Assembly: GCA_031213475.1 (NCBI GenBank)
Contig: JARUPZ010000002.1
Span: 4,969,049 to 5,033,048, forward strand
Reading direction: 5' to 3'
DNA from: Nereocystis luetkeana
Lineage: Eukaryota; Sar; Phaeophyceae; Laminariales; Laminariaceae
Length of the DNA: 64,000 bases
The notes under the pieces were generated by a model. That model saw only the letters and a list, made by a program, of their open reading frames with translations, did no database searches and was not told the DNA's origin. Shown one piece after another: positions 26,266 through 60,004 of this stretch. How positions within the stretch are numbered: the first letter of the stretch is position 1; every line of letters starts with the position of its first letter. The position numbers and the translations under genes are program-made.

Positions 26266-27689
26266 AAAAAAGAATGTCAGATGTACGTGCCGTACATATT
26301 TCATTTCCAGAGCGAACCCGTATCTGGCATGAAGCTGGTATGAAGCTATATAGTATACCGCCGGTTATACCATATGTATACTATCATCGTGCATAGGGAT
26401 ACGCGTGTGGCCCGTGTTGTGCGCCGCAGGCGCGCAAGCCCCCCGCAGGGAACTTGCGATATACCTGGTATGCGCGAATATATTCCCGAAAAACAAGTAA
26501 CAAAGTGCGTTTAAACGCCTCCCGAACCCCGATCAGGCGTGTATCGAGATCAGAACCCAATTTTAATCTGTTGTACTACAGGCGAAATGTAAAGGGGCTC
26601 GAATTGTTTTTCGCCAAAAAGGCGGATTTGAAAAACAATGTTGAAAAAAAAAAGGCCTACGGGGAACAAAAAGGCCGCAATTCTTTCTGGGGCCTGCGGC
26701 CCAAAAAGTTGCGCACCCAAAATCGCGCGTTGCGCTGAACCCTCGCCGGCTGTTGCGGAAAATGGGTATTCTGACCAACAGGTTGTGCCAGCGTGCGAGC
26801 GCAACAGCTAATTAAATCCCTGCTGTGTAGTACCCCTCTACCCTATATGTGTATGTGTACGAAATATGCATATTATGTTTGTGTGCTGTGTTGTGCATAC
26901 TCCTACAACCAGTATGCTCTCCGTCGTCTGCCCCCGACGCGATGCTTCGTTGTGTCAATACTCTCTCTGCTCTTCGCGTAAACAGGGAGCATACGACAGC
27001 CGGTAGTCAGTTGTGCTTCATGTAAACTTCTCGACTTCTAATGGAAAGCTGTGTACGATACATGTTCTTGAGCGATTATGCCGACCAGGGTCCGCTGCGA
27101 CTTTTCTTCCCTCTTCCCCTCGGCCGCTTCGTGTTCAGCAGGGATGGGTGGCAGGCTCGTTTGCCTGGCGTCTGCGTCACACTCCATCATACAAGCACGC
27201 GCGATCGAAGTATCGCATGCAGCTTGAAAACACAAATTTGAGGGGAATTTTACTTATTTTCATTATTTAATGCATCCTTGGCACCAGATAATATACATGG
27301 TTGATGCTCTAGTGGCGTGCAGAGCAAGTGAGCGCAGCGCAAACTTGAGCTGATTTCGGAGCGATGGCGTCCTTTCCCTCTGCACTCCGTACTGGTGCAA
27401 TGCAACTCCCGCAAGACTTGCAGAGCTGATGACTTACCCAGCCCACCCATCCACCAACCACCCAACCATTCACTTACCCGGCGCTACCCCCCTGTCCCTC
27501 TTCCTCCTGTGCGCGGCTTGTGTGATGCGCATACCAGGATTTTTGTATTGGCTCCCTTCGCCAACAATCTGCCCACACACCTCAACATCGTTCTCCGTGG
27601 TTTTGACGAAGACAGGCTCACTAGAGTCGCGTCCGCACGGCAATCAACTTCGACTACGGGTGGTGGGATCTCACGAGCGCCGTCGCGAG
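26266..27689. other. No gene recognised; upstream flank of the bZIP gene
   Basis: No domain-bearing ORF. An open frame continues upstream of the chosen bZIP start as far as 27429, but its N-terminal 87 codons look like random Pro/Ser/Thr sequence. Confidence 0.5.
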
Positions 27690-28790
27690 ATGGACGACCA
27701 ATACCCTCGCGGGGGGGAGGGCAGTAGAGCAGGAGAGGAGCGAGCCGCGCCATCCGCCAATGACGTCCAGACTAACTCTAGCCAAGAATTACCACCGTTT
27801 GATGACGTACCAGCATCGACAGCTACAAGAGCGACATCGGCCACCGCCACCTCTACCACCGTCACATCGAAATGTCCAGCAACCGCGGTGCGTAGAGGCG
27901 GCCTGGGAGGGGTGCTCTTCGTCAACCCCGATGCCGCGCAGGCACGCGCGCACCGAAGGGACAAACTCGACGCGTCGCGCTCAAGGGCTGCATATTCCGT
28001 ACCTCGCAGCTGCGACCCAAACACCGCACAACGAGACCACCGCCTGAAGGAGATCCGGCGAGGAGAGCGGGCACTGAGGAACCGGGAGTCTGCCGCCCTC
28101 TCTCGAAAGCGCAAGACCAACCGCGTCGGAGAGCTCGAGATTCAGGTGGAGATCCTCGAGGAAGAGAACCGCCGGCTGCGTCTGCACGCCGCTCACCTGG
28201 AGCGCAGCGGTATTGATGACAACAACGGAATAAACCCCCCACCCATGCCTGCCATCTTCCCTTCCACATCATCCGTAGTAGACGAGGAAGCGCGGGGGCG
28301 ACAAGCCCCGGCAAAAAATATTCTACTGACGCCGCCGTCGCCGCCGGCAGCGGCCGCGGTTGAGCAAGCGTTGATCGAAGAGGGAACGGGAACCAGGTCG
28401 GCGGTAACAGTGGCGTGCGGTGCGCAGCAGCAGCAGCAGCAAGAGGAGGGGCTGCCGGCGGGGGTTTGGACGCACAATGGGGCGAGCACGAGGCCATTCT
28501 ATTCCGACAGTAGCGAGTTTTGTTCCGACAGCAGCGACGCGGAGGACACCATCGATCGCCTTTTCGTTGCGCTGATGGCACAGGAAGCAGCAGCACGAGA
28601 AGGAGGAGGAGGAGGAGGCAGGGAGGAAGAACGGGGGGCGGCCAGCAGCACGGTGGTGGGCGCGGGACTCGCGGTTCTTCAAGGCGGCAAGGGGGGGAAG
28701 TATGCTCGGTTTGACCAGAATGGTGCTCGTCGGGGGATGTTGGCTCATGTCAACTCCGTGTTTGGCTACGAGGCGGCGGGAAGAGGATAA
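27690..28790 (+). CDS. bZIP transcription factor
   Basis: Intact single-exon frame of 366 codons, nuclear by inference. Residues 1-115 are Ser/Thr/Ala-rich with an Arg patch at about 88-100. The basic region at about 121-142 carries the bZIP signature N131-x7-R139 within RNRESAALSRKRK. Leucines at 149, 156, 163 and 170 form a four-heptad zipper, so it should bind DNA as a dimer. The tail is low-complexity: Pro/Ala (211-223), Q5-6 (246-251), an acidic Ser/Asp stretch (272-288), and Gly6 (305-310). Such tails are typical of activation or disordered regions. I chose the ATG at 27690 because the frame upstream looks non-coding; an in-frame start at 27429 (87 codons earlier) cannot be excluded. 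No partner gene lies nearby. Target genes cannot be inferred. Confidence 0.88.
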   Translation: MDDQYPRGGEGSRAGEERAAPSANDVQTNSSQELPPFDDVPASTATRATSATATSTTVTSKCPATAVRRGGLGGVLFVNPDAAQARAHRRDKLDASRSRAAYSVPRSCDPNTAQRDHRLKEIRRGERALRNRESAALSRKRKTNRVGELEIQVEILEEENRRLRLHAAHLERSGIDDNNGINPPPMPAIFPSTSSVVDEEARGRQAPAKNILLTPPSPPAAAAVEQALIEEGTGTRSAVTVACGAQQQQQQEEGLPAGVWTHNGASTRPFYSDSSEFCSDSSDAEDTIDRLFVALMAQEAAAREGGGGGGREEERGAASSTVVGAGLAVLQGGKGGKYARFDQNGARRGMLAHVNSVFGYEAAGRG

Positions 28791-34166: not shown

Positions 34167-34450
34167 TGTTGGTAAGATCAGAGCATGCGAGACACTTTGT
34201 ATCCCTGGACAGGTCTGCTTATTAAGGTTGGTACTCGTTGGTACTCACGTTTGTTGTTTGCTTAGAGATAGAAGAAGAGCAGCTTTATTCTTTTCATGCA
34301 CGACGGAGACTGAGACCACGCTCGCGCCTCTCTGGAAAACCCCTGGTTTTACACCTAAGATACGCCTTCCAAGTACTACAAATACGATCCCAGTGCCTGA
34401 ACCCAGGTAATTACCGGGCTTTCAACCTCATACAAAGCAGTGTCATAACA
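34167..34450 (-). repeat. 3' LTR of the gypsy element
   Basis: Starts TGTTGGTAAGATCAGAGCAT and ends TCATAACA on plus. Matches the 45925 LTR along its whole length, including TCCCTGGACAGGTCTGCTTA and TAGAGATAGAAGAAGAGCAG. Next to its inner edge the element reads CAGAGTGGGCTAG on minus, a weak polypurine stretch also present beside the other family members. Confidence 0.9.
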
Positions 34451-35403: not shown

Positions 35404-36033
35404 TTACTCCGAGAAAACTCCCGTTGTGCCGCGCCGATTCTCATTCGGCGGTACAGGCGGTTGGTTTGACGGTGCTGGTTCGGGGTGCCGGCCCAGCAAG
35501 CGCCAAATTGCGCGGCGAGAGAGCTGAAGGTCCATTTCTAGTTCCCAGGATGGGCGGGGTAGTCCTGTCCAGTGCGTCTCGCACATCACCGCGATGATGC
35601 CACCTCGACCTCGCACCGATTGGTGTCCGGTAATCTTTTCCACGTCGAGTCGTTGAAGAGGGGTCGAAACGTCGTCCTGGGTGACGTGGTACGGGGGAGA
35701 TTTCTTGGAGAAATTGTTGAGCACATACTGCGTTAACCCCGCTGGCAAATACTTCGGCATATCGCTACGGTCGTGGAAATTGGCACAGGGCTTGCAGCGT
35801 TGAACTGATACGCGCCGGCGAGCATTCACGCCGGCTTGTCGGAAGGGATATCCAAATACAGGAGCTTTGTCCCAAGAGGAGATCCGTCCGGGGTGTCCGC
35901 TGAGGAGCAGGGGCCAACTGCGAGAACTTGGTAGGGGCCTGTTCTGTTGAGTGAGAGTTTGGCCTTGAGGATCTTGGTGTCCGTGTCGGTCTTCGCGCCT
36001 TGGCGGATGATGGCCGCCGTATTGTACACCCAC
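35404..36033 (-). pseudogene. Chromodomain-like segment of the gypsy integrase tail
   Basis: Frame of 209 codons in a different phase from the integrase core. Its middle reads VEKITGHQSVRGRGG, then the IIAVM stretch, W-T-G-L, PSWE and L...AI. This matches the order of a chromodomain (E-K-I-L..., R-G, V-x-W/Y-x-G, TWEP, I...Y). Chromovirus-type Ty3/gypsy elements carry such a domain after the integrase, where it binds methylated histone tails. Weak similarity, so moderate confidence. Confidence 0.55.
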
Positions 36034-36749
36034 GCCCAGCCGCCATCGTCAAATTTGGGGACTGGACGCAGAATGTCGGCGAGGGCGGAGTTGCGGCGGT
36101 TTACGCGAGCAACAGTGAGGGCGTGGGGTTCGTGAACGATATCGTACGCGCGCTGCTGGCGGTCCGTCGCCAAGTCGCAGTAGGCGAGGTGGTCGCAGGC
36201 CAAGCTCTGGTGGCCGGCGACTCCAGCACGCTCGAAAACCGTGAGGGGGAGGCGTGACAGCCGACCCATATAGACCTCGTTGGGAGCCTAATCCGTGGTG
36301 GCACTGACCGAATTGTTGCACGTAAACCCGACTTGAGGGAGCTGTTCATCCCAGTTGTTTTGGAGCTCGTTGACGACCATTGCCAGCATCTGGGCCATCG
36401 CGTGGTTTACACGTTCCACCCCACCGTTGCCGTTTGGATGGTAGGAGCTGGTGGCATTTTTTTTATCCCCGAGAAGCTGATATACGGCGTGCGAAAGCTT
36501 GGAGCAGAACTGAAGGCCGTTGTCTGAGAGGATGCTGCGTGGGCACCCCCACAGAGGAATATATCGGTTGATGAGAATGTTAGCCGTGCCCTCAGCGGTG
36601 AAGCCTGCCGCTGTGATGGGGTACATAACGACAGGGCGGCTGAAACCATGAGTGAAAAACAAGATGTAGGTATTTCCTCGAGGCGTCACCGGTAGAGGGC
36701 TGAACAAGTCGATACTAACGGCGATGCCGGGCCCTTCTGGCGAGGGCAA
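35826..36749 (-). pseudogene. Gypsy integrase catalytic core and C-terminal part
   Basis: Counting from 36749, D14 (SIDLFSP), D76 (LSDNG) and E112 (GVERVNHAM) give a DD35E triad with exactly 35 residues between the second Asp and the Glu. The catalytic triad is therefore intact. An in-frame TAG near 36286-36290 separates the core from the C-terminal region, which continues in the same frame to 35826 (the KFDDGGWAWVYNTAAIIRQG region, LNRTGPYQVLAV). Catalyses cDNA insertion in active relatives. Confidence 0.9.
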
Positions 36750-37319: not shown

Positions 37320-37900
37320 TCAGTTGGCGGCGGAAGCCGTGATTACCACGGGTCTCGGCGCGGTCGCGGTCTGACGGGATGGGTATCGTCGGGACCGACG
37401 AAGCGGCAGGAGCCGGGGCCAAAACGACGGGTGCAGGCGGCCGCGGCCGTGGGGCTCGCGGCGGGGCAATAGCACGCCGGGCTGATGGTCTAGGGGTCCC
37501 GCCGGGCCCGAAGCCATAGTCGATAGCAGGCGGCGCGGTGCCAGCGGCGGCGGCTGTTCGTCGGCGCGTCCGAGTGGAGATGCGGCCGGAAGACGGCAAA
37601 ACACACGGAGGCGCCGGGTTGCCAGGCGGCGATGGAGCAGACGCGGCCGGATCAGTGATCACAGCGGAATCTTTTCCCCAGTGCTCGTTGGGGGAGGAGC
37701 GCGCTGGACGACAATCGTCGCTGCAGCGCGGGCTTCTGCAGCGCCCTGGCCTGGAGGGGCAGACGCGGCCGGAGCAATGCTCACGGCGGAATCTTCTCCC
37801 CTATAAATTTCTCGTCGGGGGAGGAGCGCGCTGGGCGACAAACGTCGCCGCAGCGGGAGCTTCTGCAGAGCCCTGGTCGCCCCCGGAGGGTACGACAAAA
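37320..37900 (-). pseudogene. Pro/Ala-rich linker between RNase H and integrase
   Basis: Low-complexity Pro/Ala/Arg coding potential on minus. Contains an imperfect ~124-bp tandem duplication: plus words AGACGCGGCCGGA, CAGCGGAATCTT and GGGGGAGGAGCGCGCTGG recur at about 37637-37760 and 37760-37880. Long linkers here are unusual for gypsy pol. Confidence 0.6.
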
Positions 37901-38680
37901 ACCGAAGCGAAAGCGATGTTGGCGGCGGGTGAAAAAACCCTCAAGCCAGGACGGCGATCGACGGTGGCGATGGAAGCAGATACACGAGCGACGAATCTCC
38001 CCGAAGGAGCAGAGAGGTCGTCAATCCTCATACGTGGCCCGTGTGTGCGAAAATCGCGAAAATCCGAAGAGGTGAAAGGCAGCCCACCCAAGACGGTACT
38101 TTCGGTGCAGGGCACCAGCCCACCCAAACCAACACCAAGGGTCAGCGAAGAGCGAGTGCGAAGCCCGCAGGCTCGGATGAGGAAGACACCACCGTCCTCG
38201 ACGGGAGTGAGGCGGCTAGACCCACTGCGGTCGTGTTCTGTGGCGGGCTCCGGCAAGTGGGAGAGAAAATCAGCGTTTCCGTTGGCGCTGCCATTGTGGT
38301 ACTCGAGGGTGTAATCGAACGCGGTGAGGAGCTCGAGCCACCGCTGGACTCGCGCGTTGTGGTCCCCTACTTTGCCGATGCTCTCCAGTACTTTGTAGTC
38401 CGAAAATTTGCGAAACTTTGTCCCCCATAGGTAGCCTCGGAGTCGCTTGATAGCCCAGACAATGCGGCCAGTTTCCAGGTCCAACGGGGTCCAGTGCCTC
38501 TCGGAATCGAGAGTAGCACGGCTGATATAAGCAATGGGCCGTACCGAGCCGTCCAGTTGTTCTTGTTAAAGCGCGGCATCAGAACCGTCAATGCAGGCGT
38601 CACATTACACGCGAAAGGGGCGGGAGCCGTCGGCTACAGGGTCCCAGTCCGGGAAGGCCAAAATTGGCGGAGCAGCGAGG
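37900..38680 (-). pseudogene. Gypsy RNase H
   Basis: The frame from 38484 reads the WAIKRLRGYLWGTKFRKFSD stretch, then ARVQRWLELLTAFDYTLEY and NGNADFLSHLPE, the C-terminal half of the Ty3-type RNase H fold. The N-terminal half (RPIAYIS-like, then LD.E..WTP) continues upstream to about 38670 in shifted frames. Degrades the RNA strand of the cDNA hybrid in active elements. Confidence 0.83.
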
Positions 38681-38681
38681 T

Positions 38682-38968
38682 GGTAGAGAGCGGTAGGAGC
38701 GGCGATTAAAACACATCCAGCTGTCACGTCCAAGGAGTACTGCATGCTGCATCACTTAGGGGGGAACCACGCAGGCCCAAACTGCGGGAGAGCACGTAGG
38801 CTCATTTTCTCGAAAAAATTGGTTGCTCAGGCGCACGCTCGTCGATGTCTGCAGAGGGGCTGATTCGCCGAATCCCCCAAAAACGAGGGATGCATTTTTG
38901 CTCGCACGCGACGGATGCCGCACCAACTGAGAGCATGCGATCCAAAACATCTCGTCGAGGATCTGGCG
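38682..38968 (-). repeat. Duplicated protease segment inserted at the RT/RNase H junction
   Basis: About 285 bp match 40507-40797 of the same element. Shared plus words include GAGCGGTAGGAGCGGC, ATCCAGCTGTCACGTCC, GGGGGGAACCACGCAGGCCC, CGTAGGCTCATTTTCTCG and GATCCAAAACATCTCGTCG. It interrupts the RT-RNase H connection. Confidence 0.88.
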
Positions 38969-39073: not shown

Positions 39074-40474
39074 TTATCCCACGCCGCCCATGAGCGCACG
39101 GACCTGCTTGAAGTTCTTGGGCTTGGGCATTTTAATCAAAGCCGAAAATGTTTGCGCATTGGGGTGTATACCCGCGTGCGAAATGGAGTGACCTAGAAAA
39201 TTAGCGTCCGTGGCGCCGAGGCGAGCTTTCGAGGGGGAGAGCTTGAGGTTGTGTTTGCGGAGGCGTTCGAATATTAGGGAGCGCATTCTCTTGACGTGGG
39301 CCGCCGGATTAGGGTCGAGGACGATCACATCATCGAGGTAGGCCGCCACTTGTGCCAGACCTTTGATGACTTCGTTAATCACTTTGACGAACCAACCGGG
39401 TAAAACACTGCTGCCTTGGGGAATGACGAGCCACTTGCAGAGGCCCGTAGGAGTGCTAAACGCCGTGAGAGGGACGATGTCCTTGTGCGCGGTAATCTGG
39501 TGGAACGAGGAGACCAAATCGAAGAGAGAAAATACTCGTCCCTTCCCCAGGGAGTCGAGGACTTGATCCACGCGAGGAATAGGCAGCTGGCTGTGGTGGC
39601 TGATCTGGTTGAGTTTTTTCTAGTTCACGGTGATCCGCACGCCTCCAGACTTCTTCGGAATGACCACCAGCGGGCTGGAGTACGGAGAGGTCGAGTGCTG
39701 GATCAGACCTGCCGCTAGATACTGGTCCAAGGTGGCCTCCAATTCCTTGGCCGGGATGGGATTGATACGATACGGCCTGGACGTGGCTGGAGCGCTTCCT
39801 TCCGGCGCCGAAATCACGAAAGGCATCAACGAGTAGGAACCAAAATCAGACTTGGACTTCGAGAAAACGTCCGGAAATTCGCAGAGAACATCCCCCAGCT
39901 GTTCGATGGACTCAGGGGTCCAGTTCGTGCCGTGAAAGTCGAAAGCCACCTCCCGTAGATGCAGCGGCGAACGTGCCCAGACGCGCAGGAACGAAGCGCG
40001 CTGTTCCGGGCTCAAACGCCCAAGCAGGGCAGGCGAGGGCGAGGCTGGAGCTGCGAGGGGGGAAGCTGTAACTGCTGAGACCGAAGGCACCTCAGATAGT
40101 CCGGAGGGAGGGGTCAGGGCTCGGTTGTCCTTCTGAAAAACGTCCAGTGGGACGCTCAGCAGTGAGGCGTGAGCGACGCCGAGGACATCCCCCGGCTCAA
40201 GAGCCGCCACTCCAGCGAGGGGAAGAACCTGTCTCCCGGAAGCGGCGAAGTGCTCCTCAACCGAGGGTAGGTCGGACTGGGCATCTTGTCGACCAAGTAG
40301 TATCTGGTGAGTACCGAGGAGCCATCGCTTCGAACCAAGTGAACCGCCAGCAGTTGAGGATCGTCGGCCAGGGAGACGCCTGCAGCGCCCTCGTAGCGTA
40401 AATGGAATCCTCCACCCGAAGCGGCGGGGTCGACGGCGTACACGGACATGCCTGTCGGGGCGTGGTGAACTCAC
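39074..40474 (-). pseudogene. Gypsy reverse transcriptase
   Basis: One frame from 40474 to 39074 with an in-frame TAG at 39620-39622 and a TAA just after GGVG at 39071-39074. Conserved blocks: the fingers IPKKSGG, then FSLFDLVSSFHQI with the first catalytic Asp, and YLDD at 39329-39340 with both catalytic Asp intact. The N-terminal ~180 codons link protease to RT and contain LREVAFDFHGTN and EFPDVFSKSKSDFG. Dead as it stands because of the two stops. Confidence 0.93.
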
Positions 40475-41166
40475 TCCAGCTCACCAAAAACGCGTTGGTC
40501 TGACGGGCGAGGTGGCAGAGAGCGGTAGGAGCGGCTATTAAAACGTATCCAGCTGTCACGTCCTAGTAGTACCCCATGCTGCATCAGTGAGGGGGGAACC
40601 ACGCAGGCCCAAACTGCGAGGGAGCACGTAGGCTCATTTTCTCGAAAAAATTGGGCGCTCAGGCGTACACTCGTCGAAGACTTCAGAGGGGCTGATTCGC
40701 CAAAAAAAAACAAGAACGAGGAATACATTTTCTGCTCGCACGCGATGAGCACCGCACCAACCGAGGGCATAAGATCCAAAACATCTCGTCGAATGAAAGC
40801 CTGTGGGGAGCCAGTGCCAAGAAGCGCCACGCAACCAAAAGGTTCAAGAACGCCACCTCCGCTGTGAATCGCGATTTTGGTTGTAAAAGTGGCGTCATCG
40901 AGGGTAAGGGTGCCCCCGACGAGGCAGGGGCCGTGTTCTGGCAGCGCGAGGGAGGGGTCGACACTAGGTGCGACAGCCAAAACCTCGGGGGCTGTGATCA
41001 GCCGGCGCGTCAGAAAAATAGGTCGAAAAATCCGAGGGAGGACCTGGGCAAACGCGGGCCACGGCCAAAGGGCGGGGCGGCGCTGGTGAAAGCTCATGAA
41101 TTCTGTCACTCGTGGTCGGAGTGCAAAATTGATCAGAGGAGGCGGGGTGTGCCAACCCGGCCTCAC
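40471..41166 (-). pseudogene. Gypsy aspartic protease with mutated catalytic Asp
   Basis: The motif ALLGTGSPQAFI (about residues 114-125) corresponds to the retropepsin A-L-L-D-T-G-S-P; the catalytic Asp is Gly here (codon at 40816-40818). The second signature HGVLLGRDSW at residues 197-206 is intact. Follows NADAR directly and overlaps the RT frame start by a few bases in another phase. Confidence 0.85.
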
Positions 41167-41167
41167 T

Positions 41168-41806
41168 TTAGCGGGGGGTGTCGCGAACGGCGGAAAGAGC
41201 TTTCCCGAGCAAACTTTTCACACGCCACCGAGAGGGGTCTTGAGCTTCGGGGTCGTCTGCCCGGAGACCAATGCCCTACACGGGGTCAAAATTGCTTCAG
41301 CCATTTTTTTTTGTGCCTGTGCTCAATAGGTGCTGCTCCATGACCGGGTTCTGCGTGAATTTGGCAAAGTAACCAGCAGGGACGGCGTCTTCCCGAACGC
41401 GGTCCCAGGTAGCGCAGTCGAAGTTGTTATGCACGCCTCGACCGAGGCGTTTGTGCTCGTGTGGGCCTGGCGAGGCCATAATCCGCTCCGCTGTGTCGTG
41501 GACCAAGAAAAGGCGAGACTTTTCAGTCATTATGTACTGCTCCGCGGAATATGTCACACCGTCAATGACAAAAACCGAGGGGGACCACTGCGAAAAATAG
41601 GAGGGGGGCCGCCAGAATAGTACCACCCGCTCCGTTAAATACTCGAGAGAAGGGTCAAAGACCGAAGGTGTCGAGTCGTCGGTGGCCGCCGTTGCGGTGT
41701 ATGTGTGGGGGTGTGTGCTTCGCTGAGAACACCGAGCCCCTGGTCCACGAGGCGAGTCCGGTTCCACGTATAGTGGCTCCATGTCCCCGTTGCCCGTACC
41801 AAACAA
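41168..41806 (-). pseudogene. NADAR-domain (YbiA-like) module inside the gypsy element
   Basis: From codon ~57 of the frame starting at 41806: F-W then SYFSQWSPSVFVIDGVTYSA, EQY-I-M-T-EKSRLF, ERIMASPGPHEHKRLGRGV, W-x3-R-E, AKFTQNP, and LLSTGTK at the end of the frame (41297). After a frame change in an A-run near 41305, the remaining conserved C-terminus follows to 41168: EA, D-P-V-stop-G-I-G-L (TAG where Trp is expected), W..., then LLGKALSAVRDT. That covers the whole NADAR fold of about 155 residues. Family members hydrolyse N-glycosidic or ADP-ribose-type bonds; specificity here is unknown. The frame extends upstream, through one TAA near 41903, into a Pro/Ser-rich linker to 42118, so it was probably part of the gag-pol polyprotein. 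Confidence 0.87.
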
Positions 41807-43064: not shown

Positions 43065-45886
43065 TTAGAATACCGCTAAGGTCTGAATGGGGTGCCGACA
43101 CTGTCTGAGGGAGTGTGAGTCTTCGGGGCAGTTCAAACAGTGGCCTCGGTTCTCGCTGAGGGCGGCCGCGCGGGCGGACGATGAAAGTAGACCGCTCCAG
43201 AGGGGAGGGTCCTCGGTCTGGATGGACATGCAAACAGCGTGAACTTTAGCATAGTGGTGTTCTTCTAGGAGCCAGCAGTTGGAAGCGGTGTCAAGCCACG
43301 GGTCGAGGCAGTTAGGGATGGATTTGTGGACATTCATCACAAGCGGGTTATTGCGCAACCCCGTCTGCCAAACAGGCGACTGGGGAAGCGTTCGGCCCTG
43401 GCCGCGACCATTACTGGCGGGCCGGGCCCCCGACGGGGCGGATGACCGCACACGAAAAAGCAGGCAAAGAAGAATATTTTTCGCCGTTGATGGCAGGTGT
43501 CTTATTATTCGCGAGGTCTCAAAAGCCAACCACATGGCGTCCAAAGTACCAAACGGCCTCGACGCCGTAGCCTAAACTCCCGGGTACAGCGTGGGCATCA
43601 ATCAGGGGAACTGCTCGTTCACTGCCATCCGAACCACCTCCAAAACAATCTCCACCACTGGTGCCAAACCACGCTCAGTCCCCGTCGCTGCCGACACCAC
43701 CCCTCGAAAAGCACGGCTAAAATCGCAAATGGGAGTCCCGTTAGGTACGCCAAAATTATTCAACTTGGTGTAGCTGGTCCTCGTGCCGGTGCGGTCGAAG
43801 TGGTTGCTCTCAGCAACCTCCGGAGGAGCGTGAACGCCTCCGGTCCCACCGATCCGGCTGCGAGGGCGCGCGACACCTTACCAAAACAATCATCCATCAA
43901 GGTAGTGAGGGGGGCGGTCGTGGGCTTGTCAGGCGCGATGGCGCGCGCAAAGGATTCTTGAGGGGGTACTCCCAACCGGGGATCCAATCGGTACAACTAA
44001 GGCCTTCGTGGCTGCCATCGTCATGAGAATATCATACGTGGGAGCCTTAACCGAACGAGTGAGTTGCCGCACGGCGTCACAAGGGTTGGCCGAGGAGGGA
44101 AAAGGTAGAACAGAAATGCGAGAGATGCCTTTCAGTCCCAGGTGTTTGTATGCCCGTTGGACGCCAGTTGTGTACTTTTTCGCGACGGCGGCGACAGAAT
44201 CGATCGCCGTCGTTCGGGCGTGAGCGAGGTTAGACGACACGGGCATGGCGCGGTCATCGGACATGGTCAAGCGACCAAGAAGCGCGGCGGAAGAAGCAAC
44301 TTCCGTTAGCGAGGGGACCTCGGGAACTGGGCTTTTGCCGCTGCCGTCCGTGGAGGAGCTGGAAGAGTTGGCCTGGGAAGCGTCTCCTCGCGGGCGGTAC
44401 GTCCTGGAGCGCCCGTCGCTCGAGCTCTCCTTTCCCTGGCCGCGGTTTCTCCGACGTCCAGCTCCGTTTCGCCGAGATGTGCTCCGGCTGTAATTTGCAC
44501 CCTGCCCGCGGCGGGTCCTGCCCTCATGGCCGGTCGAGGCTCCTCCCATGTTCGGGCGCCGGCGGTCCCAGTCGTCAGCGCGGCAGTGGGAGCGGTCGCG
44601 GGCTCCAAAGCTATCGGGGACTCCCGGGTGTCGGTGCCCCGGGGGTCGGTGGGCCCGGTCGTCCGAGGGGGGGTCAAGGGGGGCGTGGGCCTGGCCCGAG
44701 CCCTGTCTGACGTCGGGGAGCCGGTGTCCCTGGTCGCCCGGGTTGACCTGGCTCTTGCAGTGACGGCCATACTCGGCCGGATTATGCCAGAAAACGGTGG
44801 AGGGGGCGCGTCGTGCGCCTTCCGCAGGCTAATCACCAGAGCCATTGTGTGCACCCGGCGTTGCTGGGCCTTCCAGGAATCGTCCGCCATTGTCAGCCAA
44901 GCGTCGTGGACGGAGAGGTTGTCTGCGGCCATCTCGTGTCGGAGTCGGCGAGCGGCAGAGACCGCCCTCGTCGCCGCCTCAGGGGGGAAGCACGGGTTGG
45001 GCTCGGCGGCCATGCAGGCGACACTCCCCTGCATGAAATCCAGGTCCCCGGTACGCTTGATCCGGGCGTCGACCGCGATCGCGCTAGAAGGGAGCGGGTC
45101 TGAGGGGTCAAGTCCGGGGGCTGGAGTGGCCGTCGTCGCGGTTGCGGCGAGGGGAAGGCGCTCAGCTGAAGTCCCTGCCTCGGCAATACGACCGGTCTTC
45201 GTGCTGCTGTCCACCCGGGCAGCCCGCAGAGCTTCCCTGGCGCGGGAAATGGAGTCCTGGGCGCGGGAGGCGGAGCGCGCTGCGTCCTCGGAGGCCGCGG
45301 CGGCAGCCTTCGAGGCGCTGTCGGCGGTCTCCGAAGCTTTGGTAGCGTCGGCGGCGGTACGAGCGGCCGCTGATGCCTCTTGCTCGGGCGCCGTTAGCGC
45401 TTGCGCCCGGTGGCTCGCGGTTGTCGCCGAGGCAGCCCCGAAGGTCTCGGCGGCGGTCAAAGCCCGTTCGGCCGCGACGACATCGGGGTGATCGTCGGCG
45501 ACAGCAAGAGTCCCTCGGCTGCGGCAGCGTCGATCCGAGCTGGCGTCGAGCGTTGAGCCGGGGTCCCCGCGTTGAGGCCCGGATTGGCTGACCAACGCTG
45601 GATGACAGCTGCCTGAGCCTCCGCCGAGAGGGAGGTCCATGCGTCCGGTAGTCGGAGGGGCGGGGCTTGATCCCTGTCCAGCTTGGTCCCCCGTCCTGCG
45701 TCTTTTGCTTCAGTCCGTTGCTCGTCCTCTGAGTCAGGGGGCTCGAAGTCCACGGCGTCCTCCAGATTCGTGGGGCCCGGGAGCTGGGGTGTCCTCTCTC
45801 CCGACGAGGGAGAGGAGCCGTACGTCTTCAGGTCGCAGGTAGACCTGGCGAGGCTGGGTGCTCCTCCCTTGCTTTGTCCGTGACAT
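43065..45886 (-). pseudogene. Gag of the gypsy element
   Basis: ATG at 45886 (minus), about 40 bp past the LTR edge. The protein moves through several frames: an Asp/Glu-rich start with WTSLSAEAQAAVIQRW near 45640, a long Ala/Ser/Arg-rich region that forms a 444-codon frame at 44306-45640, and a capsid-like part (WLAFETSRIIRH; NCLDPWLDTASNCWLLEEHH) in the frame at 43065-43544. A C-x2-C-x4-H-x4-C zinc knuckle lies at 43098-43139. Gag forms the particle and packages RNA in active relatives. Broken by at least three frame changes. Confidence 0.82.
43098..43139 (-). pseudogene. CCHC zinc knuckle of gag
   Basis: Residues C-L-N-C-P-E-D-S-H-S-L-R-Q-C: exact C-x2-C-x4-H-x4-C spacing, the nucleocapsid signature. 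Confidence 0.93.
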
Positions 45887-45904: not shown

Positions 45905-45924
45905 GACCTGCCGGCGACGCCACT
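45905..45924 (-). promoter_or_regulatory. Primer-binding site of the gypsy element
   Basis: Directly past the LTR end (...TTAACA on minus) comes AG then TGGCGTCGCCGGCAGG. A TGG start fits pairing with the CCA end of a tRNA. The primer tRNA was not identified. The same string resembles the middle of SINE family B. Confidence 0.7.
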
Positions 45925-46207
45925 TGTTAAGATCAGAGCATGCGGGACACTTCGTATCCCTGGACAGGTCTGCTTATTAAGTCGGTACTCGTTGGTACTC
46001 GCGTTTGTTGTTTGCTTAGAGATAGAAGAAGAGCAGCTTTATTCCTTTCATGCACGACGGAGACTGAGACCACGCTCGTGCCTTTCTGGAAACCCCTGGT
46101 TTTCCACCTAAAATACGTATTCCAAGTACTACAAATACGATCCCAGTGCCTGAACCCAGGAAATTACCGGGCTTTCAACCTCATACATACAAAGCAGTAG
46201 CATACCG
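45925..46207 (-). repeat. 5' LTR of the gypsy element
   Basis: Starts TGTTAAGATCAGAGCATGCG on plus. The far end (CAAAGCAGTAGCATACCG) has lost the canonical CATAACA seen in the other LTRs. Confidence 0.88.
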
Positions 46208-46617: not shown

Positions 46618-47166
46618 TGTCAAGAACAAGGTCGGGACAGTTTGCATCCCTGGACAGGTTTGCTTATTAAGTCGGTACTCGTTGGTACTCACGGGTGTTG
46701 TTTGCTTAGAGATAGAAGAAGAGCAGCTTTTCCTTTCGTGCACGAGGAGACTGAGACCACGCTCGTGCCTCGCTGGGGAAACCCTTGGTTTTCCATTTAA
46801 GATACGCCTCCCATGTACTACAAATACAGTCCCAGTTCCTGAACCCAGTTAATTTCTGGGTTTTCAGCCCCATTCAAAGCAGTACCATAACACCACCCCA
46901 CTCTGATGAGCCGTGTATGAGGATTTTTGGGGAAATCGTGAAAAACCCGATTCCACAAGCTAGAACGTAAGCCGAAGATGCGGCTTCTCAAAACCCACTC
47001 CCACACCTCTGAACAAGGTAAAGAATCGGCAAGGTGCGTCAAAAAGAGAAAGAAATGAAGGCCTAACCTTAAGGGGCAGGAATAAATCGTCAACGAAAGC
47101 CATCTTCGTGCCACCCGCAACGTGGGTAGGGCGAGAAAGTGACTACGGAAAAGCGAAAAGTTAACT
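46618..47166 (-). mobile_element. LTR plus 3' internal fragment of the gypsy family
   Basis: LTR 46618-46892 (TGTCAAGAACAAGG ... CCATAACA) followed by the shared 3' non-coding region to about 47166. No coding part. Its right end adjoins a family B SINE. Confidence 0.85.
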
Positions 47167-48040: not shown

Positions 48041-48600
48041 TGCTAAAATCAAGGCCAGGACACTTGTATCCCTGGACAGGCTTACTTATTGAGTCGGTAC
48101 TCGTTGGTAGTCACGTGTGTGTTATTTGCCTAGAGATAGAAGAAGAGCAGCTTTATTCCTTTCGTGCACGAGGAGACTGAGAGCCAAGCTCGCGCCTTCG
48201 CTGGGGAAACCCCTGGTTCTCCATCTAAGATACGCCTACCATGTACTACAAATACGATTCCAATATCTGAACCCAGGTAATTACCGGGATTTCAGTCTCA
48301 TTCAAAGCAGTACCATAGCACTAGCCCACTCTGATGAGCCGTATATGCAGAATTATGGGAGATTCGTGGAAACCCCGACTCCACGAGCTAGAACGCGAGT
48401 CGAAGATGCGGCTTCTCAAAACCCACTCCCACACCTCTGAACGGCAAGGTAACGAAGCCGGTAAGGTACGTAAAAAAAGAGAAAGAAAGGCAAGCCTAGC
48501 CTTAAGAGGCAGGAATAAGTTGCCAACGAAGCCATCTCCATGCCACCCGCAACGCGGGTAGGGCGAGAAAGTGTCTACGGAAACGCGAAATGATAAGACG
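48041..48600 (-). mobile_element. LTR plus 3' internal fragment of the gypsy family, second
   Basis: LTR 48041-48320 (TGCTAAAATCAAGG ... CCATAGCA), then the 3' non-coding region to about 48600. Coding part absent. Inserted beside or within the GGGTC-repeat region. Confidence 0.85.
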
Positions 48601-55929: not shown

Positions 55930-56679
55930 GTGCCAGCCAACGTGAGGGAGGGGGGAGCGATAGCAAGGGGTAGACGAGGCCGATCGAGAGGTTCTGGGAG
56001 GGGTCCACGAGGAAGCAGTGCAGGGAGAGGGGCCGACGCGAGTACGGGGCGAAACGCCAGGCGGGGGGGCAGTGCGCCACCCTCTTCAGCAGACGGGAGG
56101 GGGGAGGGGGGAGGGGGGGAGGGAGTGGGGGGAGCGGAGGGAGAAGGGGAAGCGTGGGGACCGGGGGGGACAGAGGGATCGGAGGGAGCGGGGGGGGAAG
56201 GGGGAACGGAGGGAGCGAGGGGAGTGGGGGAAGCGGGGGAAGCGAGGGGAGCGGAGGGAGTGGAGGGAGCGGGGGGAGCGGGGGGAGCGGGGGGAGCGGG
56301 AGCAGCGAGGGGAGCGGGAGGAGCGGGGGAAGCGATGAGAGCGGGGAGAGGGGGTAGTGCGCCACCTTCGTCAGCAGGCAGGGGGTGGGAGGGGGGAGCG
56401 GGGGCGGGGGGGGGGGCGACAGAAGCGAGGGGACAGGGGGGGGGCGGGGTGGAGGGAGTGAGGGAGGCGAGGGAAGCGGGGGGAGGGGGGGAGGCGGAGA
56501 GAACGGGGGAGGCAGAGGGAGCGGGGAGAGAGGGGGGAGCAGATAGGGCAAGAGGAGTGGAGGGCGAGGGGGGCGAGGGGGGGACGGAGGGGGAGGAGGG
56601 AGCGGAGGGAGTGGGGAGGAGTACCAGGAGCGAACCTACCAGAGAGGAGAGATATAGTGAGGGTAGAGGAGAACCGTAA
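55930..56679 (+). pseudogene. Low-complexity N-terminal region of the non-LTR element
   Basis: Open frame that extends upstream as far as the (AAT)n tract. Rich in Gly, Glu, Ala and Arg because of a GGGGGAGCG-type 9-bp repeat (about 56090-56640). An Arg-Gly-rich start (RGRRGRSRGSGRGPRG) could bind RNA. The purine-rich repeat is open in other frames and on minus too, so coding status rests only on position. Confidence 0.5.
56090..56640. repeat. Purine-rich GGGGGAGCG 9-bp repeat
   Basis: About 550 bp almost without pyrimidines except single C or T per unit; G-runs of 4-10. Plus strand G-rich. Confidence 0.93.
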
Positions 56680-56784
56680 ACGGGAGGGCCGCGGAATGGT
56701 GGGGGAAGAGGGGGGGGAGAGGGGAGAGAGACGAGCCAAAGAAGTTGAGGGAGAGGAGCCGCAAAGGACGACAGGGGGTCTGGG

Positions 56785-57384
56785 ATGCCAAACGACGAGG
56801 GTCCAACCGGAGGATCTCCCAGGGCGTCGGGGAGGAGACCCGGGAACGGGACGCGCCCCAGGGCCTTCCTTGGCGACACCACAGGGGAAGTGGCGTGCGG
56901 GGTCTGCGGTGCAACGCTACAACTAGGGCACCGGGTGGCACGCTTTCCATGTGGACAAGGGCGCCACGTGCTTCACGCCCGTTGTGTGGTGGAGGCCCTT
57001 GCGAGAGGCGCAGCACCGGCACCTCTCCGCTGCCCAGCAGTCAACTGCGGAGCACAACATCCAAGACGGGAAGCACTGCAGGCAGCGGTCCAAGCGGACC
57101 GGGGGCTTCGTAATCGGGCCGCGAGGATGGGAGGGGGAACCATAGGTGATGAGGACCTTCGCAGCCGGGGGCTTTGGTACGGGTGGGACCAGAACAGCTT
57201 GGGTATAGGGCCACCGCTTGATGCCGTTTCCTTGGATGACCTGGGCCAACGTTTCGCAACCGGGAAAACAGTGCAACCGCAGTTGGCTGGCGCACATGCG
57301 CGCATTAGCATTCACGTGCTCGGCATCCTCAACCACGCTATGGGTGAGCACAGGCCGAACCGAGAGTCGGCGACGCCGAACTAG
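56785..57384 (+). pseudogene. RING-like finger region of the non-LTR element
   Basis: Zinc ligands run CGVC, then FPC, RH, LH, ARC, RCP and VNC. This gives C-x2-C-x14-C-x4-H-x2-H-x2-C-x16-C-x4-C, which resembles RING-H2/variant RING E3-ligase fingers but has longer C3-H4 and C7-C8 spacings. Followed by about 110 codons without a known domain, ending in a TAG at 57382. The frame continues past it into the RT N-terminal region. In other elements of this group the N-terminal fingers bind target DNA. Whether this one binds DNA or a ubiquitin E2 is unknown. Confidence 0.6.
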
Positions 57385-57906
57385 CTCCTACGGACGATCA
57401 AGCTATGGTACCTCATGCCAGCCCTGCTCCACTCCCCGGACGGCCGAATCAAGAGGCGGCAGAGGTTAGCGTTGGTGGAAAGCGGGGATATAGTACTCCT
57501 GCTCCCATGGCTGATAGCATTCACCAGGGGAGGGGACCTGAGGCGACGGGATGCCGCCCAAGAAGATTCGGAGGAGACGAAGCTTGAGCGGGCGTCGTCG
57601 GCGTGTCGCCACGCGGGAGGGGTCAAAGTGGCAGCTCGCAACCTGCTAGCAGAGCCACGATCAGCTGGAAACGAAACGACGTGGAGCACACTGGTGGCCA
57701 AGTTCCCCTCCGAAGATCGCGCCGCAGTGTCCGCGGCGGCGGCGGCTGCGGTGTTGGCGACCGCCACCGAGATGGAAGATGGAAACGCCCCTCCGTGGCG
57801 CCCTGACGATGAGTACGCCTCCGAGGTGCTCTTCGACGTCGGCTCATCACCGCGGGGGCTATGCGACAGTGGCGGTCGCGGTTGGAGGGGGTCAACCGAG
57901 AGGTGA
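57385..57906 (+). pseudogene. N-terminal extension of the RT
   Basis: Same phase as the RING block. Contains KLWYLMPALLHS, RRQRLALVESGDIVLLLPWL, and an Ala-rich stretch. It breaks frame near 57860 and continues in another phase (RQWRSRLEGVNREVRQ, then GVEHVGLRARTLHET) up to 57980. Confidence 0.7.
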
Positions 57907-57960
57907 GGCAGGTTGGGGTCGCCGTACCCGGAGGAGTGGAGCATGTGGGACTGAGGGCTA

Positions 57961-59043
57961 GGACGTTACACGAGACGGGCAAACTGGGTCGTCCTAACGG
58001 ACTGCTCCAACGCCTTCAACACGGTTAAACTGACGGCGGTGCTTGAAGAGGCGGCCAACTGCGTTCCAGCGCTGACGCCGTTTGTGGCGAAGTGCTACGG
58101 CACAAGACCCGCCGACGTGTATTTCCGGGTGGACTCAGGGGAGACCAGGACGATCGCCTGCTTCAGCGGTGTCCAGCAAGGGGACCCCTTGGGGCCGGCA
58201 ATGTTCTGTCAGGCGTTACGACCAAGGCTGAAGCGTTTCCGACAGGAGTTCGAAGGAGAAAGAGTGGAAGCCTTCGCCTACATGGACGATGTATCTCTCG
58301 GCCTTATGGGGGTCACGGCCAACACGATTAGAGCTTTTGCCTTCCTCCGGCGAGAGCTAGACGACATCGGCATTATGGTCAACCCCGCCAAGACCGTAGC
58401 ACTACCACCCAAAGGACACGTCCCGACGGCGGAGGAGATAACGCTCCTGGAGAGCGTTGACGTCCGCATCGCAGACGAAGGAGGGGTGACGGTGGTGGGT
58501 GTCCCGATCGGCTCGGATGAATACGTGCGGGGGCGAGCAATGGAGGCAGTGAGGGACGGAGGCGCGGACCGCCTTGCACGCTGCCTCGCTAACATGCCAG
58601 ACAAGCAAGCGGTGGCCCTCATCACCGTCGAATCCCTCGGGCAGCGGACGGGCTACCTCGAAAGGGCTCTGGACCCGGGGCTGCCACTCGAAGCATGCCG
58701 AAGGGCCGACAACGGGGCTCAGTGGGCCTACGAAAATATCCTAGAGCTACCGGGAGTGGCGGACGCACAGTCGTTTTTCCAGGAGGGGTGCCCGGCCAGC
58801 CAACTGACTCTAAAACCCTACCAACAAGCCCAAGCACGCCTTTCTACGGGAGCAGGAGGGTTTGGGCTGCCGTCGACGGAAGCGAGGCGAATGTCTGCCT
58901 CAATTGGGAGTAGGGTGGGCATCCTGCCGGAGGTTCTAGCAGACCTCACGGGCCCGCTAGGAGACAGGGTAAAGAGGGGTCTCCCTCATTCGAGCATCAT
59001 TGCTGAGCTCGGTGGCAGCCTGCGAGAGACACGTGGGGCTTGA
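57961..59043 (+). pseudogene. Reverse transcriptase of the non-LTR element
   Basis: The frame is in phase from 57961 (NWVVLTDCSNAFN, holding the first catalytic Asp region) through SGVQQGDPLGPAMFC, typical of R2-like and LINE RTs, to FAYMDD (about 58279-58290) with both catalytic Asp. Thumb and linker region to 59043. Ends by a frame change. In active relatives it reverse-transcribes the element RNA at the nicked target. Confidence 0.9.
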
Positions 59044-60004
59044 CTAAAGAAGCGATGGAGGGCATCGTCCCCGAATCCTGGCTGGAATGGAGCATGGGTG
59101 TAGAGGGGGACCTGGTCCCAGGGCCCCCTGAAGCCGACATGCTGGCGGCGCATGATGCCGTAACCACTAACTCCCGGAAGGCTCAACAGAGGCTGGGCAA
59201 GCTGGTGAATCAGGGTCGACACGCTGCACACACAGCCTCGCTGGAGGGGCTACCGGAGATTGCACGCCCACCTGGACCAGGCGACCCGCTGGGGGGGAGC
59301 GAGACCAAGGCCTTCGCCAAAGCTCACTACAGGAGTCTACAAGGAGCAGGAGCCACTGCTTGCCTTCGGGCGAGGCCAACAGATTCGCTCCGTGTCATAC
59401 CAGCAGAGGAGTTCGTGGGCATGGGAAGGCGCTTCATAAGCATCGAGGAGCACGTGGCGGTGAGGTGCCCCTGCTGCGAGGCAGTCGACATAGACACACG
59501 CCACGCACGCATCTGTCCCAGAGCAGGGGCACAGGTAAACCAACATCAACCGTTGGTTCACGCGATCTCCCGCACGCTGAAGCGTCTGGGAATCCCTCCC
59601 CAAGCGGAGAGCGGCGAACCGTTCACTGCAGACCGGAACCTGCGGATGGACATCGTTGTCAGGAGAGGAGGTCTTCGGGACGCTCCTAATAGGGGATACA
59701 GGGAAACGCCCATCCTGCTGGACGTCACCCATGCAGACCCGCAAGCACAGGTCCACCTGCGAGGAGGCAGCGCTGATCATGATGGATCAGCTGCCTCTAC
59801 CTCCAAGGCGCGCAAGCGCCAACACTACGCGCGTCCGGGACATGTGTCCTTCGACGAGCGGAGCCACAAACTAGCCACCTTAGCGGTGGGAAGCTTTGGG
59901 CGCCTCGGGGTAGAGGGCAGCAACTTCATCGACCAGCTGGCAGCTAGCGTCGTGGGGGGGAGGGATGGTGGGTCGATGGCAAGGAAGGGGGTAGTGAAGG
60001 AACG
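59040..60004 (+). pseudogene. CCHC finger and restriction-like endonuclease, copy 2
   Basis: Continues the RT in the next frame; its first codon is not ATG, so it is not an independent start. C143-x2-C146-x8-H155-x3-C159 (CPCCEAVDIDTRHARIC) is an intact CCHC motif. R202-M-D204 and L-L-D228-V-T form the endonuclease acidic pair. The frame runs unbroken into the LTR element at 60005, whose insertion truncates it; the continuation is at 63962-64000. Confidence 0.88.

Follow-up and report, generated by a model that had tools for sequence, protein, structure and literature searches.

A NADAR domain in a Ty3/Gypsy retrotransposon lineage of the brown alga Nereocystis luetkeana

A broken Gypsy element and its NADAR domain

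The window, by which we mean the whole stretch of 64,000 nucleotides analysed here, carries on its minus strand a retrotransposon copy whose features are listed in Table 1. Between two LTR-like repeats the order protease, reverse transcriptase (RT), RNase H and integrase is that of the Ty3/Gypsy type; the integrase (rve) match is sub-threshold, and the protease is recognised by its motif, by homology and by the fold of a relative. The two LTR pieces have a K2P of 0.056 over 277 aligned sites. The outer end of the 5' LTR, beyond 46204, is absent from the match, so there is no site at which target duplications could be compared. Behind the integrase, the three open pieces scanned in this degenerate copy (35404-36269) gave no profile match to a chromodomain.

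Table 1. Features of the NADAR-carrying element in the window, from its 5' to its 3' side
Feature	Position	Strand	Basis
LTR-like repeat, 5' side of element	45924..46204	-	92.6% identical to 34169-34447; match ends at 46204
Open frame, 444 aa, at gag position	44306..45640	-	ORF only; Pfam scan without match
Gag-type CCHC zinc knuckle CLNCPEDSHSLRQC	43098..43139	-	Motif scan
NADAR domain and N-terminal Pro/Ser-rich linker, two in-frame stops	41168..41806	-	Pfam PF08719; frame reading; tblastn of relatives
Aspartic protease region	40471..41166	-	39% over 160 aa to protease end of NADAR-PR protein P0064
Open piece, protease-RT junction	39620..40474	-	ORF; Pfam scan without match
Reverse transcriptase	39074..39571	-	Pfam RVT_1 E 5.7e-21
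Internal duplicate of 40507-40792	38675..38958	-	90% over 198 nt and 84% over 64 nt
RNase H	37801..38484	-	Pfam RT_RNaseH E 6.5e-9
Integrase core	36288..36749	-	Pfam rve E 6.3e-7, 30.0 bits, just below cut-off 32.6
LTR-like repeat, 3' side of element (matched part)	34169..34447	-	Repeat comparison

Reading the minus strand from 41806 to 41168, the conserved blocks of a NADAR domain follow each other in one frame, down to LLGKALSAVRD, and the open piece 41298-41806 matches Pfam PF08719 (NADAR) with E 5.8e-22 and 79.1 bits (cut-off 35.1). The earlier note on this DNA had named these blocks in order and had read the Trp of WGIGL as a stop; both the frame and the profile agree with it. There are two in-frame stops, at 41297-41299 and at 41276-41278, and the second is the Trp in question. 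Further, the Cys before AEQ is missing and HNNF has gained one residue. The LLAEAS segment, where the catalytic Glu would stand, is garbled, and this copy has lost its Glu125 segment; Glu43 and Lys50 are kept (residues are numbered by alignment to PDB 8BAU and by those named in the available text of PMC11543638). The named nearest relatives of this domain are brown algal.

The same note had placed the domain between a CCHC knuckle and a protease on one strand, and this is what we find: the knuckle lies about 1.5 kb upstream and a region with LLGTGSPQ downstream. In the window copy the protease is in a different frame from NADAR, and its first active-site Asp reads Gly (LLGTGSPQ, where relatives have LLDTGSPQ). 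This copy of the element is dead.

Several other features of the surroundings can be recorded. In this copy the duplicate of the protease-end segment separates RT from RNase H. Two LTR-like copies lie beside the element (46633-46889 and 48058-48317, 84-85% over about 265 nt to its LTRs), and further related ones occur in the opposite orientation, near 12.8-13.1 kb and 52.9-53.1 kb. On the plus strand there is a 453-aa open frame with a bZIP domain (27429-28790, E 1.1e-8), probably a host gene, and a separate RT fragment (58039-59043, RVT_1 E 8e-10), on the strand opposite to the NADAR element. A G-rich minisatellite with a 9-base period and 28 copies (56099-56618) adjoins a GC-rich block (56001-60000, 65% GC).

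Presence across the family and place in the polyprotein

The genome searched is 465 Mb. At the DNA level the NADAR block has 39 further copies at 88-90% identity (best 40 of 345 candidates scored, the window included), and 36 of the 39 match the whole block in one piece. A search of the same genome with the NADAR profile, as the earlier note had proposed, gave 150 scored matches (best 150 of 778 candidates), all of them above the cut-off; 130 have no internal stop and 47 sit inside frames that stay open for 2000 codons or longer.

A search that started from the RT of the window gave 1224 candidates, and 150 of these were scored as RT relatives. A NADAR match is found upstream on the same strand in 90 of them, the window counted, and the spacing between NADAR and RT is 1.53-1.79 kb in 89 cases and 0.57 kb in one. 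Thirty of the remaining 60 were inspected, and NADAR is present in 16 (12 of 20 and 4 of 10), counting L085, which has the C-terminal part only, and both L067 and L068, which are identical matches on two contigs. In total, NADAR lies upstream in 106 of the 120 RT relatives checked out of the 150 scored; here, as among the PF08719 matches, several rows come from small contigs whose sequence duplicates larger ones, so they do not count as independent. Where NADAR was not found (14 of the 30 inspected), nine elements are broken or rearranged, either by the end of homology or by an abutting LTR-like piece (L059-L062, L065, L069, L077, L080, L081), and in five (L075, L084, L086-L088) the upstream stretch is uninformative. 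NADAR-less sister families may exist. Of 29 other family copies inspected, 19 have a CCHC-type knuckle 1.50-1.60 kb ahead of NADAR.

It had been considered in advance that other copies of the family might lack NADAR, or that the block might have been captured by the window copy only. Neither is the case: the domain is present in most of the RT relatives checked and is common to dozens of copies. A private capture by the window copy is ruled out by the 39 further copies together with these RT relatives.

In 26 of the 66 fetched loci that have both domains, NADAR and the protease motif share an open frame (some places are counted twice, and the 66 loci hold 60 different frames). One long-frame copy has the knuckle in the frame of NADAR, followed by a stop; the next frame opens directly and NADAR lies about 372 codons into it, so in this copy the domain belongs to the N-terminal part of Pol and not to gag. 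The polyprotein proposed in the earlier note, with the order gag, NADAR, protease, is thus upheld by the order and the open frames of other copies, and has to be amended in that NADAR is N-terminal in Pol in the one copy where this can be read.

The same combination occurs in public proteins. A DTGS-type protease motif is present in 19 of the 262 compared, and 16 of the 19 have a precomputed NADAR domain. In the Pfam scan the protease of P0149 scored below threshold only (Asp_protease_2 E 0.022, Ty3 peptidase E 0.12), and no protease family was reported for P0157, P0152, P0167, P0165, P0064 or the window's protease piece. Because of these sub-threshold scores a structure model of P0149 was made. 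With a mean pLDDT of 60.7, and with the aligned part of each match assigned from secondary structure, the model matches aspartic proteases of retroviral, Ddi1 and RloA type as well as the NADAR structure 8BAU (E up to 0.001). By these fold matches P0149 would carry both a NADAR and a retropepsin fold. The NADAR model of P0064 has block means of at least 91 over residues 41-180 and matches 8BAU (Foldseek E 2.4e-10, TM 0.75 by target) and YbiA (2B3W).

The linkers between NADAR and protease, otherwise divergent, keep a short motif (GIHEIS, GIHETS, FEIDP). Examples are the linker of P0064, from residue 198, and that of P0149, around residue 158; the Glu of the motif stands in a column that is at least 90% kept. 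The motif is possibly a processing site.

Selection and active-site residues

In maximum likelihood (ML) codon fits between families, six NADAR pairs of finite distance have omega values of 0.095-0.14, with likelihood ratios of 46.6-67.0 against an omega of 1, and eight protease pairs have 0.06-0.10; as dS is saturated (3.7 and more) these values are rough, and the pairs, drawn from a few common lineages, are not independent of each other. For two NADAR pairs and every one of the eight linker pairs the fitted distance reached its bound. With a counting method, the between-family medians are 0.19 for NADAR (90 pairs), 0.21 for the protease (20) and 0.88 for the linker (15), the saturated pairs numbering 317, 124 and 219, respectively. 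The protein identity between three representatives of the families is 46-55% for NADAR, 52-58% for the protease and 23-40% for the linker.

Within families the picture is flat. In pairs of recent copies from other families (three for NADAR) omega is 0.41-0.79, not different from 1 (likelihood ratio at most 1.8), and in the window's family the medians by counting are alike for NADAR (0.52), linker (0.50) and protease (0.46). Within-family dN/dS is uninformative, as expected of dead copies. The dN/dS test on NADAR codons that the earlier note had suggested gives a signal between families and none among recent copies. Judged by these codon comparisons, NADAR is under purifying selection between families. 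In this genome NADAR is a standard component of the element and under selection.

The active site is mostly kept. In the 41 stop-free copies, many of which are near-identical, Glu43 and Lys50 are found in all 41, Arg79 in 39, Glu125 in 37, the Trp of WGIG in 40 and Lys75 in 34, and 37 copies retain the catalytic Glu/Lys/Glu. Separated by family, 19 of 23 stop-free copies from the window's family retain Glu125, as do all 18 from the others. In L007, L010 and L037, all from the window's family, a Lys replaces the catalytic Glu125, which could reflect shared descent or a recurrent G-to-A change.

Seven public NADAR-PR proteins are long enough to score, and in two of them another residue stands in place of Lys50, Glu in P0157 and Asn in P0162; their relative P0159 keeps the Lys. 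Another, P0152, lacks both Arg79 and the Trp. Lys50 is essential according to the available text of PMC11543638, so with the replacements in P0157 and P0162 not every lineage is clearly catalytic. Judged by the kept active site, the element NADAR is most likely enzymatically active.

Origin, possible role and known systems

By score, the top cellular relative of the window's family is the brown algal protein P0012 (202 bits), with P0037 close (194 bits). In this ranking P0151, a public protein with two tandem NADAR domains, was set aside, as its score is inflated by the repeats; some proteins in the compared set may themselves belong to elements. For the two other families tested the top cellular relative is not brown algal, unlike for the window's family. 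The element NADARs do not form one group in the best tree. However, with seven rows of uncertain kind left out, neither a single group of element NADARs (p-AU 0.174) nor a group of elements and brown algal proteins (p-AU 0.145) is rejected. Taken together, scores and trees do not settle whether the domain was captured from a host or transferred from bacteria, nor how many times it was captured.

Other traces of an origin were looked for. A search upstream of the element NADAR for a remnant of the Cys/His-rich stretch that the brown algal NADAR proteins have gave scattered weak matches (best E 2.8e-5, five sequences, composition correction off, matches partly of low complexity) and is not relied on. 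None of the best 150 of 936 candidates is a separate NADAR gene that reaches 60% to P0030 of Pylaiella (best 58%), in a search that could miss an intron-split or unscored gene. One scan of viral contigs, sensitive to close relatives only, gave no NADAR relative.

To our knowledge, accessory enzymes are uncommon in the polyproteins of LTR retrotransposons. An enzyme whose relatives take ADP-ribose off nucleic acids suggests that the element encounters a modification in its host. The genome of a Gypsy element is RNA, and the element makes its single-stranded cDNA in the particle, next to Pol. A NADAR released or tethered inside the particle would be close to the element's RNA genome and to the growing cDNA, where it could hydrolyse ADP-ribose off guanine bases. 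Host ADP-ribosylation or stray adducts would thus be kept from blocking reverse transcription or integration.

Such an activity is known from related enzymes. NADARs reverse guanine ADP-ribosylation on single-stranded DNA, including one of the YbiA type from an oomycete (PMC11543638; PMC11125620, as far as their available text goes), and in RNA they free guanosine of ADP-ribose while leaving that at phosphate ends in place (PMC11833690, likewise in part). That the element NADAR is an active hydrolase which frees element RNA or cDNA of guanine ADP-ribose adducts has, in our judgement, an even chance of being right; both substrate and role are what we infer.

It is possible, though unlikely, that NADAR acts instead on small ADP-ribose derivatives or in the repair of element RNA, and not on base adducts of the element's own nucleic acid. 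The E. coli YbiA was first linked to riboflavin intermediates (available text of PMC11543638), so the substrate of the element NADAR could be a small molecule. In the portions available, a role of this kind, RNA repair, has been proposed from context for phage NADARs (PMC9503650), RNA processing has been suggested for NADAR elements of Ectocarpus (PMC12477816), and YbiA-family NADARs are described without the extensions of the DarT1-linked type (PMC11125620). Against this, the NADARs tested act on guanosine-ADP-ribose in RNA and single-stranded DNA and not on phosphate-end adducts (PMC11543638; PMC11833690, available text).

Hydrolysis of base adducts can be carried one step further, to a NADAR-Gypsy lineage that packages an active guanine ADP-ribosyl hydrolase and thereby undoes a brown algal ADP-ribosylation defence directed at retroelement RNA or cDNA. 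This is plausible because the active-site residues are mostly kept and NADARs act on guanosine ADP-ribose in DNA and RNA; it would require a host writer, and we regard it as rather doubtful. If true, eukaryotes would have their own version of the DarT/NADAR conflict, one in which the transposon carries the antidote.

A fairly improbable alternative is that NADAR has turned into a binding or structural module for nucleic acid or ADP-ribosylated partners and that catalysis no longer matters. A place after the nucleocapsid knuckle and before the protease would suit such a module, as would the replaced Lys50 of two public proteins and the absence of Glu125 from 4 of 23 window-family copies; however, Glu43, Lys50 and Glu125 are kept in all 18 stop-free copies of other families, whose representatives are no more than about half identical. 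That the domain is a piece of a host gene, picked up a single time and kept without function, as the broken window copy and the lack of constraint among recent copies might suggest, is highly improbable given the 106 RT relatives with NADAR, the long open frames and a between-family omega well below 1. Activity, target and host modification of retroelement nucleic acid are directly testable with the many stop-free NADAR copies of several families.

Among the literature matches listed for NADAR in transposable elements, PMC12477816 (Genome Biology 2025) alone appears relevant. According to its available text, the 200.2 Mb genome of Ectocarpus has a Gypsy lineage, including Gypsy-12_Ec32 and other families, whose Pol has an N-terminal NADAR; the role of NADAR in retrotransposition is called unclear, and horizontal transfer is suggested from mostly bacterial matches. 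The shared feature is a NADAR in N-terminal Pol, seen here in one long-frame copy; in the window copy the frame is broken. The window element would belong to the same lineage. Gypsy-12_Ec32 is reported there with a C-terminal chromodomain, for which the three pieces scanned in the window element gave no match.

The same source, in the part available, describes Tx1 LINEs of Crassostrea gigas with a NADAR; these too are retrotransposons, but of the LINE type, with the domain in ORF1. In our tree six mollusc NADARs, which may or may not be Tx1 proteins, form a separate group. Nidoviruses, hepe-like viruses and picornaviruses (PMC9503650, available text) also have a NADAR within the polyprotein of an RNA-based element, proposed there to undo host ADP-ribosylation; they are positive-strand RNA viruses without reverse transcription, unlike a Gypsy element. 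The NADAR of Phytophthora nicotianae (8BAU) is the best structural match, with the same predicted fold and active site, but it is a separate protein, with published guanine-ADP-ribose hydrolase activity (PMC11543638, in its available text). The brown algal NADAR proteins P0012 and P0028-P0030, by score the nearest named relatives of the window's family, are also separate short proteins, with an N-terminal Cys/His-rich stretch and no protease in the sequence seen.

The novelty is limited, as NADAR-Gypsy elements of Ectocarpus were described in 2025. What is added is the regular presence of NADAR across families in another genome and the frame that it has in common with the protease. Selection and the active site are not discussed for the Ectocarpus elements in the available text of PMC12477816; the constraint between families and the mostly kept active site found here argue for a working enzyme.
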